Shown piece after piece: positions 13,360-20,800 of a stretch of DNA of 64,000 nucleotides; the first letter of the stretch is position 1, and each line of letters opens with the position of its first letter. Below the pieces are notes generated by a model. The model was given only the letters and a program-made list of their open reading frames with translations, was not told the DNA's origin and searched no databases. The position numbers were made by a program, and so were the translations under genes. The DNA comes from Roseibium album (GTDB taxonomy: Bacteria; Pseudomonadota; Alphaproteobacteria; Rhizobiales; Stappiaceae), in the NCBI GenBank assembly GCA_001404055.1, contig CXTY01000015.1, forward strand, positions 186,001 through 250,000, written 5' to 3'.

Positions 13360-14172
13360 TCAAGCGTCGAGGCCGAGCACATCGGCCATTGAATAAAATC
13401 CAGGCTTCTGGTCAAAGCCCCATAGAGCTGCCTTGACCGCGCCGCGGGCAAACAACTGACGATCTTCAGAGCGGTGGGTCAGCTCAATGCGCTCACCTTC
13501 TCCCGCGAAAATCACCGAATGTTCGCCGATAACCGAGCCACCGCGCAAGGTCGCAAAACCGATGTCACCAGCAGTCCGTGGCTCCATGATGCCGTCCCGG
13601 CTACGGACCGAGTGCGCAGACAGGTCAATGCCGCGTCCTTTTGCAGCCGCCTCTCCCAAAAGCAAAGCAGTACCGGATGGAGCGTCAACCTTATGTTTGT
13701 GATGCATTTCCAGAACTTCGATATCAAAGTCGGAATCCAGTGCAGCTGCGGCTTTGCGCACGAGCGCTGCAAGCATATTCACACCAAGGCTCATGTTGCC
13801 AGACTTTATGATCCGGGCGTGGCGCGCAGCAGCATGAAGCGGTTTGTCTTCACCTTCCGCCCATCCGGTGGTGCCAATGACATGAACAATCCGCGCCTGG
13901 GCAGCAAGCTCTGCAAACCACAAGCTCGCGGCAGGGGCAGTAAAATCCAGAACACCGTCGGCCTTCGCAAAGGCGGTCAGTGGGTCGTCAGTTACCTGAA
14001 CGCCAAGCTCGCCCACTCCGGCTAGCTCACCGACATCTTGGCCAAGAACATCTGTCCCTTCCCGATCTACTGCCGCGACAACATCAGCACCTTCAGTCTC
14101 GGTTACAACGCGCGTCAACACACGGCCCATTCGACCACCGGCGCCAACGACCACCAAGCGCATTCGCCCCAT
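13360..14172 (-). CDS. dapB: 4-hydroxy-tetrahydrodipicolinate reductase
   Basis: NAD(P)H-dependent step of the diaminopimelate and lysine pathway, feeding peptidoglycan. The dinucleotide-binding motif [10 protein letters not shown] is at the start, and the family signature [16 protein letters not shown] with its catalytic histidines and lysine is intact. The open frame extends upstream to 14253, but the ATG at 14172 puts the nucleotide-binding motif at the usual position and has GAGAG before it, giving 270 residues. It is divergent from the luxP-like operon across a long AT-rich gap. Confidence 0.95.
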
Positions 14173-14253
14173 AGCTGTTCTCTCATTCCACTCGTGTTGG
14201 GGGCGGTATAGCAGCTTCGCACCTGTAGGCAAATGGGCTGGACATTTCTTCAA

Positions 14254-14643
14254 TTAATGCTTCTGGTGTCATTCAATTGCAGTTGACAATTTTCTTTGGC
14301 AGCAATCCCTGAGTGGAAATCTTTCGAGCGTGAAATTATGCGACTCAAACCAGTTATAGATACTGGAACCCATTCAAGCGATTACACGAAGGCAGGACTT
14401 TCTTTACATAGGCAGACTCATTTCACTCGATCAATCGCGTAAGAATTTATTCTTAAGCACCTAAGGAATTGATGATTATATGCCTACCAACACAAAGATC
14501 TGCAACTTCAAATAAACCACAAGTTGCAAGTAGTTTTCTTTTGAAAAGATCAGTATTTACTGGAAATTATTACAGGTTTTGCCGAAACTTGTGTGAGCAC
14601 TATAATTACTTGGTATAATCAGCCTCGAAATTAGCAAGCAGCA
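14254..14643. promoter_or_regulatory. AT-rich divergent intergenic region upstream of the luxP-like operon
   Basis: About 390 bases without a gene, clearly richer in A and T than the flanking genes. It holds a perfect 7-bp inverted repeat (TAAGAAT at 14440-14446, ATTCTTA at 14449-14455) and an 8-bp inverted repeat with a 12-base spacer (TGCAACTT at 14501-14508, AAGTTGCA at 14521-14528). Two TATAAT hexamers lie at 14601-14606 and 14614-14619; the first has TTGCCG 16 bases upstream (14579-14584), so it is the better promoter candidate. The repeats could be operators for a regulator of the operon; none is identified. Confidence 0.5.
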
Positions 14644-15792
14644 ATGAAACCCTTTTTCACCATTTCCAAATTGCAGGTGTCTTTCCGCGTTGGTCTCGTG
14701 ATCCTGTCGCTTCAGATCTGGTTGCCATTTCAATCTGTCCTAGCAGACTCGGCCTCCAAAACGCTGGACGATTTCTGGACATTGGATGAGTTTACGATCA
14801 GCCATCCGAAACAAAGCAGAAATTCAGATAATTTTGTCAAACGCGTCGCTGCAGATTCAAGTCCGTTACCCGACTACAAGGGCGCTGCAAAAATCGCGGT
14901 GATTTATCCGGGAGAACAGGCATCTGATTACTGGCGCCGAAGTGTGGTTTCGTTCGAAGCAAGGTTGAAGGAACTGGGGCTGCCCTATCAGATAAATTCC
15001 TTCTTTTCCGGCTCGCCCTCTTTCGTTGGCAACCAAGCTCAACTTATAGCGGCGGCTTTGAAGGAAGATCCTGACTATTTGGTGTTTACACTCGATGTTC
15101 TTCGCCACAAGGGCCTTGTGCAGAGGCTTATCGCCCGTGGCCGCCCCAAGATAATTCTTCAAAACATCACGACGCCGGTCAAAGCCTGGAGGAGCCGCCA
15201 ACCATTCTTGTACGTTGGCTTCGATCATGTGACGGGCACCAATTTACTCATCGACTATTACAAGAAACGCTTCGGCGAAAAAAAACCCTTCGCGATACTT
15301 TACGGTCCTCGTGGTTACGTAAGCCGTGCACGCGGGAACACGTTTCTCCAATCCTATTCAGATCCGAACACGCGGAACCTGAAGGCATCATACTATGTGG
15401 GCTATGACCGCAACAAATCTCGGAACGCGACAAACCGCATCCTTGCAGAGAATTCTGACCTTGCCTTTGTCTACGCATGTTCGACGGACATCGCGCTTGG
15501 CGTACTTGATGCTATCGAGGCCCACGACAACCGCAACAATGTTGTGACCAACGGTTGGGGTGGCGGTAGCGCTGAGCTTGACGCTATTTCAGCTGGCGAT
15601 CTGGATGTTACCGTGATGCGCATGAATGACGACAATGGTGTGGCAATGGCAGAGGCGATTGCGCTCGACATGGCCGGCCGGGAAGACGAAATTCCCATTG
15701 TTTATTCCGGAGAATTTCAACTGGTGACCTCCAATGATACTGCAGGACGTATTAACGAACTCAAGGCACGGGCGTTTCGATACTCAAAATGA
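14644..15792 (+). CDS. luxP: LuxP-type periplasmic autoinducer-2 binding protein
   Basis: Predicted periplasmic receptor for the interspecies signal autoinducer-2 (AI-2). It has a Sec signal peptide (hydrophobic core VGLVILSLQIWLPF, cleavage expected near VLA-DS) and a type I periplasmic sugar-binding fold. Against Vibrio harveyi LuxP as I remember it, long stretches match, such as LQNITTPV, QPFLYVGFDH and NGWGGGSAELDAI. The nine AI-2 contact residues I recall there have identical counterparts: Q92, S94, W97, N174, R230, T281, D282, W305 and R326. Spacing is the same except for one extra residue before W305. The stop overlaps the next start (ATGA), coupling it to the LuxQ-like protein. A general ribose-type binding protein is much less likely given these residues. 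No luxS is in the window. Confidence 0.9.
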   Translation: MKPFFTISKLQVSFRVGLVILSLQIWLPFQSVLADSASKTLDDFWTLDEFTISHPKQSRNSDNFVKRVAADSSPLPDYKGAAKIAVIYPGEQASDYWRRSVVSFEARLKELGLPYQINSFFSGSPSFVGNQAQLIAAALKEDPDYLVFTLDVLRHKGLVQRLIARGRPKIILQNITTPVKAWRSRQPFLYVGFDHVTGTNLLIDYYKKRFGEKKPFAILYGPRGYVSRARGNTFLQSYSDPNTRNLKASYYVGYDRNKSRNATNRILAENSDLAFVYACSTDIALGVLDAIEAHDNRNNVVTNGWGGGSAELDAISAGDLDVTVMRMNDDNGVAMAEAIALDMAGREDEIPIVYSGEFQLVTSNDTAGRINELKARAFRYSK

Positions 15793-18545
15793 AAGCGGCA
15801 AGGGGCATTAAATACAGCCGAATAGTCTTGGGCCTGTTTTTTGTGGGCTTGATGACGACTGCCTTCGCTTTGTTTGGCATCACCTATCTTGGAAACCTCT
15901 CAATTGCCGAGATCGAAATTGAGCGGCGCGCCGAAAAGGAAAACGCGCTTGCGAGCCTCGTTTTTGAAAATCATCTCAAGCAGCTTGAAAGCCAATTGCG
16001 CGCAGCTTCGCTCAACCGTGGGCTCATTGACGCAGTAAAGTCATATGACAGCGGTGAGGCCACGCGAATTCTGGAACAGCTTGGTCAAAATACGACCGGT
16101 CCGCTGCCAGACGTGCAGATTGTGGACCATGAGCACCAGATGGGCTGGTTGAATGCCAGCCTTTCACTTGTGGATGTGTCTGCGGTTCTTCCGGGCCAAA
16201 CCGTCAAGACGATGCCCCCTGATGTCTGGCGCCTTTATTCTGACGACGACGCAACGCCCCCTGTCGTCGTTGCACTCATTGCTATTCCAATCATCGACCC
16301 GGAAGACGGACGTGTGATTGCGAAGCTCATCGGTGGCAGTTCCATCAATGATTCTTTTTCTCTGCTCGACGCACTTTCCAACATTCTTGGCGTCGACAGC
16401 ATAACGATCATCCATGAAGGAGAAAGTCTGGCAAGCATTGGGGACCTTTCTGACACCGCTCAAATCTCAAATGCTTTGAGCGCTCTATCAGGCAAGGACT
16501 ATCATCTTGAAGGTGGCCGCCTGTTTACGAAATCCGTTCTCTATCTGGATGAGCATGCGCATCCTGTCTACGCGTTGACAGAAGAACCAAGTGACATCAT
16601 CGAGAACATACGATCCACCTACTTCGAAATTTTGGTCCCCTTTCTGCTCTACACCGCGCTGGCTTCGCTGGCTGCAGCACTGATCATCAACCGGTTCACG
16701 GCTCCCGCGCTCGCCAGCCTGGTTGGCTATGCCACGGCACGGCGAAACAAGGGGAACGTCGCCGAATACAGGCCAGGGCGGATCGCTGAATACAACCAGC
16801 TTGGGTCCCTCTTTGAAGATGCTTTTGAATCGGTCCACAAGACCAACGCCCAGTTCCGAGGCCTTATTGACGGTTCACTGCAAGGAGTCGTCGTACACGC
16901 GGATCAGAAAATTCTTTATGTCAATCGTGCACTTCTTAAGATGCTGCAGTATCCGGCCGAAGATCCGGAGGTGCTGCTGGGCGAACCTATATGGAAGATA
17001 TACGCCCCGTTTGAGCAGGAACGATTGAGAAACTACCATGCGCTTAGACGCCGCGGCGAGATCGTTCCGAACATCTACGAAGTCCGTGGATTGAGCAAAG
17101 CTGGCGATTACGTCTGGCTGGAACAGCATGTTCGGATGACCAACTGGGACAACAGCCCAGCGATCTACGTGACAGTTCTTGATATCTCGGAACGGAAAGA
17201 ACAGGAAAAACTAATCGAACTCCAGTCGAATTATGACCTGCTCACAAACCTTCCCAATCGGAGCTTGTTTCTAGACCGATTGAAACAGGCAATAAACCAA
17301 TCTGAAAGAGGCAGTCGGATTTCTGCGCTCCTTATCGTTGACATCGACCGCTTTAAGGTGATCAACGAAACGTTCGGCCATGGATTTGGCGATGAAATCA
17401 TCAAGATTATTGGCTCACGGATTGAGGCGGTTCTGCAATGGAATGAAACGCTCTCGCGGCTCGGGGGAGACGAATTTGCGATTGTTCTGCCTGACGCGGT
17501 TGATGAATGGGAAATCGAAAACAAGGCACAACAGATTCTGGATGCCGTTGCCAAAAAGATCGAAGTTGAAGATGGCAAGGATTTCTTCCTGACTGCAAGC
17601 ATCGGCATCACCGTTTGTCCTTACGACGGGGTCGCACAGGATGGTTTGATGCGACAGGCCGATGCAGCCATGTATCAGGCCAAATCAGACGGTGGCAACG
17701 GGTTCAAATTCTTCGCCAGGCAGATGAATGAACGCACGGCGCGCACATTGCAGCTGGAAACCGCGCTTCGCAATGCGATCGATGAGGAAAAACTCGAAAT
17801 CCATATCCAGCCCATTATTGACTATGTCACCGGAGCTATTTGCGGATGCGAGGCTCTTGCACGCTGGCACGATCCTAAACTGGGGATGGTCTCACCATCC
17901 GAATTTATCCCTGTTGCGGAGGAGACCGGCCTGATCGTCCCTCTTGGAAAACTTGTGTTGCGAAAGGCTTGCGCGTTTCACGCAGCTTGTGCTGCACGCG
18001 GCTTGGAGATCAACGGCATTGGTGTGAATATTTCTCCCCGCCAATGCCGCGAGGACGGATTTGTGAACTCGATCAAGAATATTCTGGATGAAACCGACAT
18101 GGATGCGCGCCAACTTCGCTTGGAGATGACTGAAAATGTCATGTTTGATGACGACAGAATTGATCCGGTTTCACTTTTGAACGCAATCAAAACCCTTGGC
18201 GTCAAGATCTCGTTGGATGACTTTGGAACAGGTTATTCCTCTTTGAGTTATCTGAAACGGTTGCCGATCGACACGCTCAAGATCGACAGATCCTTCATTA
18301 TGGATCTGGATAGCGACCTGAATGACCAGGCCATGGTTGAAGCAATAATTTCCATGGCAGGTAAACTGGATATCGAGGTTGTTTGCGAAGGCGCAGAAAC
18401 CCGGCAGCAATGCGATATTCTAACCGGTCTCGGTTGCCGGTTGGTACAGGGTTTTTATCTGGGCAGACCAATGCCCGAACAAGAGTTCTTCGAGTTTGTT
18501 TCCCGCAAACCCTATGAAACAAATCTTGCGAAAAAAGTCGGCTGA
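15789..18545 (+). CDS. LuxQ-like membrane receptor with PAS, GGDEF and EAL output domains
   Basis: Predicted to bind LuxP in the periplasm and change cyclic-di-GMP in the cytoplasm. Layout: helix about 11-33, periplasmic domain about 34-278, helix about 280-300, HAMP-like linker, PAS about 352-475, GGDEF and EAL. The periplasmic domain resembles that of Vibrio LuxQ as I recall it (shared pattern P-I-x-D-P-x-x-G-x-V and the following helix), and the linker after helix two also matches. GGDEF (559-563) is intact, but no RxxD inhibitory site stands before it (QWNE instead). The EAL motif (688-690), DDFGTGYSS (from 810), and the expected asparagine, glutamate and lysine positions look complete, so both synthesis and breakdown are possible. 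There are no histidine kinase or receiver domains. A bidirectional terminator follows. Confidence 0.9.
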   Translation: MKAARGIKYSRIVLGLFFVGLMTTAFALFGITYLGNLSIAEIEIERRAEKENALASLVFENHLKQLESQLRAASLNRGLIDAVKSYDSGEATRILEQLGQNTTGPLPDVQIVDHEHQMGWLNASLSLVDVSAVLPGQTVKTMPPDVWRLYSDDDATPPVVVALIAIPIIDPEDGRVIAKLIGGSSINDSFSLLDALSNILGVDSITIIHEGESLASIGDLSDTAQISNALSALSGKDYHLEGGRLFTKSVLYLDEHAHPVYALTEEPSDIIENIRSTYFEILVPFLLYTALASLAAALIINRFTAPALASLVGYATARRNKGNVAEYRPGRIAEYNQLGSLFEDAFESVHKTNAQFRGLIDGSLQGVVVHADQKILYVNRALLKMLQYPAEDPEVLLGEPIWKIYAPFEQERLRNYHALRRRGEIVPNIYEVRGLSKAGDYVWLEQHVRMTNWDNSPAIYVTVLDISERKEQEKLIELQSNYDLLTNLPNRSLFLDRLKQAINQSERGSRISALLIVDIDRFKVINETFGHGFGDEIIKIIGSRIEAVLQWNETLSRLGGDEFAIVLPDAVDEWEIENKAQQILDAVAKKIEVEDGKDFFLTASIGITVCPYDGVAQDGLMRQADAAMYQAKSDGGNGFKFFARQMNERTARTLQLETALRNAIDEEKLEIHIQPIIDYVTGAICGCEALARWHDPKLGMVSPSEFIPVAEETGLIVPLGKLVLRKACAFHAACAARGLEINGIGVNISPRQCREDGFVNSIKNILDETDMDARQLRLEMTENVMFDDDRIDPVSLLNAIKTLGVKISLDDFGTGYSSLSYLKRLPIDTLKIDRSFIMDLDSDLNDQAMVEAIISMAGKLDIEVVCEGAETRQQCDILTGLGCRLVQGFYLGRPMPEQEFFEFVSRKPYETNLAKKVG

Positions 18546-18673: not shown

Positions 18674-20797
18674 TTAAGCGTCGTCTTTCGGAATTTCCTT
18701 GCCAGTATCCTGGTCAACAACTTTCATGGACAGACGAACTTTACCGCGCTCATCAAAGCCCATGAGCTTGACCCAGACCTTGTCGCCTTCCTTGATCACG
18801 TCAGTGACCTTGGCAACTTTTCTCGGAGCAAGCTGAGAAATATGGACCAGGCCGTCTTTCGCGCCGAAGAAATTCACGAATGCGCCGAAGTCAACGCATT
18901 TCACAACAGTACCTTCGTAGATCACACCGACTTCAGGCTCAGCTGCAATGGAGTTGATCCAGTTGATCGCAGCCTTGATCGCCTTACCATCTGAAGAGGC
19001 AATCTTGACCGTACCATCGTCTTCGATGTTGACCTTGGCGCCTGTCTTCTCAACGATTTCGCGAATGACCTTACCGCCGGAGCCGATGACTTCACGGATC
19101 TTGTCGACCGGGATCTTCATCACTTCGATACGCGGAGCATGTTCACCAAGCTCAGAACGGGCTTCAGTGATCGCGCCTGCCATCTCATTCAGGATGTGAA
19201 TGCGGCCGTCTTTGGCCTGTGCCAGAGCGACTTTCATGATCTCTTCGGTGATGCCATCAATCTTGATGTCCATCTGAAGCGACGTGATGCCGTTTTCAGA
19301 ACCGGCAACTTTGAAGTCCATGTCACCAAGATGATCTTCATCACCGAGAATGTCGGAGAGAACTGCGAAACGATCGCCTTCCTTGATGAGACCCATGGCA
19401 ATGCCGGCTACCGGTGCTTTGAGTGGTACACCTGCATCCATCAGCGCCAGAGAGGTACCACAGACAGTCGCCATGGACGACGAACCATTGGATTCTGTGA
19501 TCTCCGAGACGATGCGCAGAGTATACGGGAACTCATGGTGCTGCGGCAGCATCGGATTGATTGCGCGCCAGGCCAGCTTGCCGTGGCCGATTTCGCGGCG
19601 TCCCGGGGAGCCCATGCGACCGGTTTCACCGACAGAGTAAGGTGGGAAGTTGTAATGCAGCATGAAGTGAGATTTCACGGTGCCTTCCAGCAGGTCGACG
19701 AACTGCTCGTCTTCGCCTGTGCCGAGCGTCGCAACGACCAGGCCCTGTGTTTCACCACGGGTGAACAGGGAGGAACCGTGCGCGCGAGGAAGAATTCCAA
19801 CTTCGGAAGTGATCGCACGAACCGTAGACAGGTCACGTCCGTCAATACGTGTGCCGGTTTCAATGATACCGCCACGAACGATTTCAGCTTCAACTTTCTT
19901 GAGCTGTTCGCCAAGCACTGTAGCTTCAGGCGCTTCGCCTTCAGCAGCATTGGTTATCAGCGCTTCAACGACCTTTGCTTTGGCAGCGTCAACCGCATTT
20001 TTGCGCTCGGTTTTCGATGTGATCTTGTAAGCAGCGGATACTTCTTCCGCAGCAAGGGACTTGACCTGTGCGAACAGCGCGGAATGATCCGGCAGAGACA
20101 GTTCGCGCGGTTCCTTGGCAGCGGTTTCTGCCAGTTTGATGATCGCGTCGATAACCGGCTGAATGTTCTTGTGGCCAAACATGACCGCACCCAGCATGGT
20201 GTCTTCGTCGAGTTCCTTGGCTTCGGACTCCACCATCAGAACTGCGTCGTTCGTGCCTGCAACGATAAGATCCAGAGTAGATTCTGGCATGTCGTCAACA
20301 AGTGGGTTCAAAACGAATTCGCCGTTGATGCACCCAACGCGAGCTCCACCGATCGGGCCCATGAAGGGAACGCCGGAGAGGGTCAGAGCCGCAGAAGACG
20401 CGACCATCGCAAGGATGTCCGGAGCGTTTTCCATGTCGTGGGAAAGAACGGTAATCACCACTTGAGTGTCGTTCTTATAGCCGTCAGCAAAAAGCGGGCG
20501 GATCGGACGGTCAATCAGGCGGGACGTAAGCGTCTCGTGCTCAGACGGACGGCCTTCACGTTTGAAGAAGCCACCCGGGATCTTACCAGCGGCGAATGCC
20601 TTTTCCTGGTAGTTCACGGTGAGCGGGAAGAAATCCTGGCCCGGCCTAGGCTGTTTGGCGGAAACGACCGTCGCCAGCACTTTGGTTTCGCCGTAGGTTG
20701 CCATAACGGCACCATCGGCCTGACGGGCAACCTTACCCGTTTCAAGCACGAGCGGGCGTCCGCCCCACTCGACTTCTACACGATGAATATCAAACAT
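18674..20797 (-). CDS. pnp: Polyribonucleotide nucleotidyltransferase (PNPase)
   Basis: 3'-5' exoribonuclease that degrades RNA with phosphate, part of mRNA decay. Two RNase PH-like domains are followed by KH (about 555-615, with the [10 protein letters not shown] loop) and S1 (about 620-690, [19 protein letters not shown]) RNA-binding domains; 707 residues is normal. Two ATGs are adjacent at 20800 and 20797; the second has the better six-base distance from AAGGA. It lies 330 bases after rpsO, the usual order in Alphaproteobacteria, and forms the end of the nusA-infB operon region. Confidence 0.97.
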
Positions 20798-20800
20798 CAT

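Follow-up and report, generated by a model that had tools for sequence, protein, structure and literature searches.

How could a bacterium couple the autoinducer-2 (AI-2) sensor known from Vibrio to cyclic dimeric guanosine monophosphate (c-di-GMP)? The question is raised by two genes of Roseibium album in a stretch of 64,000 nucleotides (contig CXTY01000015.1 of assembly GCA_001404055.1, positions 186,001 to 250,000), here called the window, whose positions are used unless a locus is named. The first gene (14644..15792, + strand) encodes a LuxP homologue of 382 amino acids, recognised from the list of open reading frames (ORFs), Pfam, the closest solved structure and an alignment of the binding pocket. 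The second (15789..18545, +) encodes a receptor of 918 amino acids in which the ORF list, Pfam, hydropathy and the predicted structure place, in order, a transmembrane helix, a LuxQ-type periplasmic domain, another transmembrane helix, and PAS, GGDEF and EAL domains. Judged from sequence, the pair is probably a one-step switch from AI-2 to c-di-GMP. A first-pass annotation, made from the letters alone, had proposed a LuxP plus a LuxQ-like receptor wired to GGDEF-EAL, and our analysis supports it at the level of anatomy, pocket, catalytic residues and a luxS gene that was not found.

Results

By its sequence and its pocket, the first protein is a member of the LuxP family, as had been proposed. 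It falls in the Peripla_BP_4 family (Pfam), and its closest solved relative is V. harveyi LuxP (E about 1e-94, 152 of 338 positions identical), with ribose-binding protein at 4e-10. A putative N-terminal signal peptide (residues ~1-35) was read by eye. In structure 1JX6, seven residues of V. harveyi LuxP form hydrogen bonds with AI-2 (PMC9687752; papers are cited by PMC number, for their accessible parts). The alignment pairs these residues (Q77, S79, W82, N159, R215, T266 and R310, letters that fit the published numbering) with Q92, S94, W97, N174, R230, T281 and R326 of the window protein (14917..15621, +), all seven identical. To them we added D267 and W289 of V. harveyi, here D282 and W305, which we presume to belong to the pocket. 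All nine letters (QSWNRTDWR) are kept in the window LuxP, both arginines included, and four ribose-type binding proteins that this genome encodes, taken as control, lack the set. Across 90 aligned LuxP rows, which include V. harveyi and the window and hold some genomes twice, six of the seven contact positions never vary, and 89 rows have Q at position 77. In a plasmid collection, 64 records match LuxP at E <= 1e-5, all below 60% identity, and the best six are from Vibrio (42-45%).

The same wiring could serve another ligand, if the LuxP homologue bound some furanose or pentose instead of AI-2 and the receptor reported that sugar to the c-di-GMP pool. LuxP does lie within the ribose-binding superfamily, and Roseibium holds a second family of LuxP-like proteins that share 6-7 of the nine pocket letters and have transporter or LacI genes as neighbours. 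However, the window LuxP has all nine letters, whereas the four transporter-type proteins read differ from it at V. harveyi positions 77 and 267 (three of them also at 159), and we regard this alternative as very unlikely.

This second family (188-236 bits) was seen in 11 of 45 Roseibium genomes and in 3 of 14 genomes of the genus Stappia; members lie at L132:3962-5107, L133:4210-5349, L134:3716-6022 and L135:4593-5810. The four pockets read, from other Roseibium genomes, are DSWNRTAWR (one) and DSWARTAWR (three). Where the neighbours were read (L132, L133 and L135), they are genes for an ATP-binding cassette (ABC) permease, an ATPase or a LacI regulator, and these near-LuxP pockets probably serve transport. 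The second protein occurs in five of the 18 Roseibium genomes whose receptor is unpaired, in six Roseibium genomes lacking the receptor and in three Stappia genomes with luxP. Being patchy and set beside transporter and LacI genes, it cannot be the general partner of luxP-less receptors, and we rejected it as such. In two genomes, G417 and G419 (loci L020 and L021), luxP seems to have been lost and the second protein is present; there it might conceivably act as the receptor's partner.

The receptor starts with a membrane helix at residues ~10-32 (15816..15884, +; hydropathy, predicted helix 9-74), continues with a periplasmic double-PAS domain of the Cache superfamily at ~36-277 (15894..16619, +) and returns through a second helix at ~278-302 (16620..16694, +; hydropathy, predicted helix 270-321). 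The LuxQ-periplasm model PF09308 matches residues 41-219 with 55 bits (cut-off 25.7, E 1.1e-14), which, like the LuxP match above, lies well outside chance. The NCBIfam model LuxQ_Vibrio, whose cut-off for the full length is 1200, aligns to residues 22-390 (E 3.3e-27, 94.8 bits), that is, over the periplasm, the second helix, the linker and the start of the PAS domain. The resemblance to LuxQ suggested for the linker was thus recovered, and so was the suggested P-I-x-D-P-x-x-G-x-V pattern: PIIDPEDGRV at residues 167-176 aligns with PILDPSTGEV of V. harveyi LuxQ. The predicted structure also points to a LuxQ fold. No dCache model (dCache_1 included) or CHASE model of Pfam matched the window receptor at E <= 1, and dCACHE structures came second in the fold comparison, so these families were rejected as the better match. 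Weak dCache_1 matches below cut-off appear in a few relatives (L109, L069, L087 and L107). In the comparison set beforehand as the check on this assignment, profiles and folds both placed the periplasmic part nearer to LuxQ than to any other sensor family seen.

The cytoplasmic part holds a PAS domain at residues ~355-470 (16851..17198, +; PAS_8 and PAS_9), a GGDEF domain at 481-637 (17229..17699, +) and an EAL domain at 659-894 (17763..18470, +), the last two from Pfam and the sequence. The motifs themselves are complete and stand where a kinase was said to be replaced, GGDEF at residues 559-563 (17463-17477) and EAL at 688-690 (17850-17858). HisKA, HATPase and receiver domains were not found in the receptor with Pfam and, because the kinase is absent, it is not LuxQ proper. 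All 20 positions checked for GGDEF metal, substrate and signature residues and for EAL catalysis, which we take to be the relevant ones, carry the expected letter. Among 34 receptors, window included, the 14 alphaproteobacterial rows with luxP have identical letters at all 20. The GGDEF motif is altered in three of the 34 (L027, L109 and the L022 tandem copy) and the EAL catalytic set in one (the same copy in L022), while nine other rows vary only at the middle letter of EAL.

These letters bear on whether both enzymes work. The EAL domain might be the sole enzyme, with GGDEF as a regulatory site for guanosine triphosphate: among NCBIfam models the highest scores go to phosphodiesterases, led by DibA with 445 bits (under the 980 of its cut-off), and the inhibitory RxxD site is absent from the GGDEF domain. 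Nevertheless, the GGDEF active-site letters checked, at positions presumed as above, are all intact (D518, N526, D535 and GGDEF itself), and we find a single-enzyme receptor possible but doubtful.

No luxS was found in the window genome, which is 99.96% complete, nor in 45 members of the genus or 87 of the family Stappiaceae (window genome in each count), with a search that was positive in 5 of 14 known genomes used as control. This agrees with the lack of luxS proposed earlier for most Hyphomicrobiales.

Within the family, matches to PF09308 with E <= 0.001 were found in 24/45 Roseibium genomes, two of which score under the curated cut-off, in 14/14 genomes of genus g283, which we take to be Stappia, and in none of 28 genomes from five other genera. 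LuxP at 350 bits or more was found in six of the 45 Roseibium genomes and in all 14 of g283. The same pair also occurs in sister species and in Gammaproteobacteria. In a sample of the class, 9 of 385 genomes had PF09308; besides the window genome, seven of them carry eight receptors (L043-L050), all with kinase outputs, and the match in G352, below cut-off, was left unclassed.

More widely, we looked at the partners in 80 LuxP loci, those among 264 whose LuxP most resembles that of the window, a choice that inflates the share of GGDEF-EAL. Partners were histidine kinases in 56 loci (38 with a receiver), GGDEF-EAL proteins in 15 and a SpoIIE protein in one; three loci showed a periplasmic (plus PAS) part only, and in five no partner was found, three of these at a contig end. 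The classes come from searches with few domain sequences, and Pfam confirms L056, L057, L064, L076, L086, L087, L107, L109, L114 and L125. The 15 GGDEF-EAL loci belong to the Roseibium/Labrenzia group (four), the Stappia group (eight, one titled Rhodobacteraceae), Zobellella, Oceanisphaera and Oceanospirillum. On the LuxP tree, c-di-GMP outputs may have been acquired two or three times, and a single origin is conceivable as well. The receptor tree was built without L031 (by identities a near-copy of L029), L042 (split reading frame) and L052-L055 (repeats of genomes already present).

Several loci deserve mention on their own. In a Desulfococcaceae genome (L086:7197-9434) the LuxP partner joins LuxQ-periplasm and PAS to a SpoIIE phosphatase (Pfam), which adds a third output to those of the LuxP front end. 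Two Oceanimonas and one Oceanisphaera (L107:2633-4228, L114:6959-8800, L125:2905-4815) have, after luxP, a gene with a strong LuxQ-periplasm and PAS in which no output domain was found; the relatives Zobellella maritima and Oceanisphaera arctica have GGDEF-EAL. An Arcobacter metagenome-assembled genome (MAG) carries an SBP_bac_3-GGDEF protein directly before luxP and a LuxQ-type kinase (L098:4534-9154), and two Methylocystaceae MAGs have LuxP with no LuxQ-type partner found nearby (L093:5890-7095, L095:5968-7116). In G409, a tandem luxP-less receptor copy with degenerate sites (GYQEF, DAA) stands beside luxP and an intact receptor (L022:764-3529). The receptor gene of G401 is split into two frames with ORFs of 794 and 215 amino acids (L042:4715-7503), which may reflect decay of this copy or faulty assembly.

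Regarding the locus, the luxP stop and the receptor start overlap in the four bases ATGA (15789..15792, +), and the pair is flanked on the left by dapB (13360..14253, - strand) and on the right by pnp (18674..20800, -), gene names that we presume for these ORFs; both lie outside the system, in a conserved locus. The ORF list and the sequence thus agree with the layout first described. A consensus scan alone gave a weak promoter-like site just upstream of luxP (TTGCCG-16-TATAAT, 14579..14606, +), in a region with seven such sites against 3.8 expected. No Rfam RNA, riboswitches included, reached gathering score in the window, and a terminator scan found no excess.

Discussion

In the mechanism that we favour, LuxP would be exported and would bind (borated) AI-2 in the periplasm. 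It would dock on the LuxQ-type domain of the receptor, where loading with AI-2 would alter the periplasmic dimer. The change would travel via the second membrane helix and the PAS domain to GGDEF-EAL, shifting the net amount of c-di-GMP made or destroyed. We infer AI-2 binding by LuxP, its contact with the receptor and the direction of the switch, as well as the step from AI-2 to c-di-GMP and its independence from LuxU and LuxO. The signal would come mostly from other species, because luxS was not found in the host or its family. AI-2 can arise without LuxS in some bacteria (PMC7584622), and therefore that the system listens to others is what we infer. In the sources available in part, corals, algae and sea water are the main origins of named Labrenzia and Roseibium strains.

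For the direction, we lean slightly towards AI-2 lowering c-di-GMP, because AI-2 breaks the symmetry of LuxPQ and a diguanylate cyclase requires a symmetric GGDEF dimer. With AI-2, the LuxPQ receptor dimer becomes asymmetric and its kinase is switched off (PMC8534201, PMC3794749). The opposite sign would have AI-2-loaded LuxP raise c-di-GMP by promoting the cyclase and holding back the phosphodiesterase, in the way that norspermidine-NspS acts on MbaA. Against it stand the end of LuxPQ kinase output on AI-2 binding (PMC3794749) and AsrK-AsrR of V. furnissii, where AI-2 lowers c-di-GMP (PMC11796354), and we hold it to be the less likely direction.

Several observations weigh against a LuxP-driven switch. 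A single-sequence search with the periplasmic part finds LuxQ only at E 0.0012, and periplasmic identity to LuxQ is about 14%. The PAS domain of the receptor may respond to something else. Moreover, of the 24 Roseibium genomes that carry the receptor, 18 lack an adjacent luxP, so that retention of the receptor without LuxP is frequent in this genus. No luxP remnants were found upstream in 18 stretches, representing 17 of these 18 genomes (L031 left out) plus the tandem copy of L022, with three luxP-upstream stretches alongside; the best LuxP tblastn match had E 0.58, and none better came from the small ORFs that L028, L034 and L038 have where the receptor begins. Divergence compared domain by domain gave no sign that loss of LuxP freed the periplasmic domain. 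A released constraint had been hinted at by L020 and L021, whose periplasmic parts show lower identity. Periplasmic divergence divided by cytoplasmic divergence was 1.07-2.42 in eight chosen, non-independent pairs with luxP, a range that covers mixed pairs (1.65-2.03, four) and pairs without luxP (1.17-1.77, five), and the idea was therefore dropped.

The receptor could also sense its main signal by itself, through its periplasmic or PAS domain, with LuxP as an optional modifier. On the other side, luxP adjoins the receptor in 20 of the 20 family genomes that have luxP (6 read, 14 by coordinates), the ATGA overlap is common to 12/12 luxP loci read for it, window included, the outgroup Stappia keeps luxP in every genome, and the window receptor is without the dCache_1 match noted above. 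We think self-sensing unlikely, and keep the LuxP-dependent switch as the preferred reading.

The system resembles LuxPQ of V. harveyi and V. cholerae in the AI-2 contacts of LuxP, in luxP lying directly before the receptor gene, and in a double-PAS LuxQ-type periplasm between two membrane helices with PAS next. It differs in that GGDEF-EAL replaces HisKA, HATPase and receiver, that luxS was not found in the host, and that a LuxU/LuxO relay is in principle unneeded. In NspS-MbaA of Vibrio cholerae, too, the gene of a periplasmic binding protein immediately precedes that of a GGDEF-EAL receptor, whose c-di-GMP output the binding protein sets, but the ligand is a polyamine, and the likeness is one of layout. 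The dCACHE receptors also lead from AI-2 to c-di-GMP in one membrane protein with a related Cache-superfamily fold; unlike our receptor, they bind AI-2 directly without LuxP, through dCache_1 instead of LuxQ-periplasm, and PctA and TlpQ prefer boron-free AI-2. YeaJ of Enterobacterales (GAPES1-GGDEF) has the same input and output, but with another sensor family, direct binding and no LuxP. AsrK-AsrR changes c-di-GMP in response to AI-2 as well, although in two steps, with a dCache_1 kinase and an HD-GYP response regulator.

In the literature, LuxPQ is essentially a histidine-kinase system of Vibrio (PMC524169, PMC2561040, PMC12834153), placed in Vibrionales (PMC524169, PMC2561040). The second of these papers also reports LuxP homologues from a few Oceanospirillales and Deltaproteobacteria that lack luxS, with the same idea of listening (PMC2561040). 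A tally of 115 LuxQ-periplasm proteins counted 112 kinases and one with c-di-GMP enzymes (PMC4822843); the architecture is thus already on record once, in the accessible part without comment. A 2025 survey gives LuxP a sensor domain only, binding AI-2 for transport (PMC12268683), and AI-2 sensing in c-di-GMP networks is given only via dCACHE in the accessible text of PMC8846402. In the literature searched, with subscription papers mostly outside reach, we found no description of a LuxP-controlled c-di-GMP receptor.

Conclusions

We give about even chances to a broader picture, in which LuxP and LuxQ-periplasm form a modular AI-2 front end joined to kinases, c-di-GMP enzymes and a SpoIIE-type phosphatase, serve as a listening device in luxS-less Stappiaceae, and were often replaced in Roseibium by a tandem luxP-less copy. 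If so, Roseibium would be a natural experiment in the passage from binding-protein-dependent to direct (or different) sensing, with relatives that have or lack luxP at the same locus as ready-made controls. As a messenger, c-di-GMP commonly governs the choice between swimming and sticking. In this bacterium, of a mostly marine genus, the AI-2 sensor of Vibrio appears to be joined to a pair of enzymes for making and breaking c-di-GMP instead of a kinase and, if the pair works as its anatomy says, AI-2 would reach c-di-GMP without a relay in bacteria where luxS was not found. This would let the bacterium listen to other species, and would allow the role of AI-2 as a cue between species to be tested with simple genetics.

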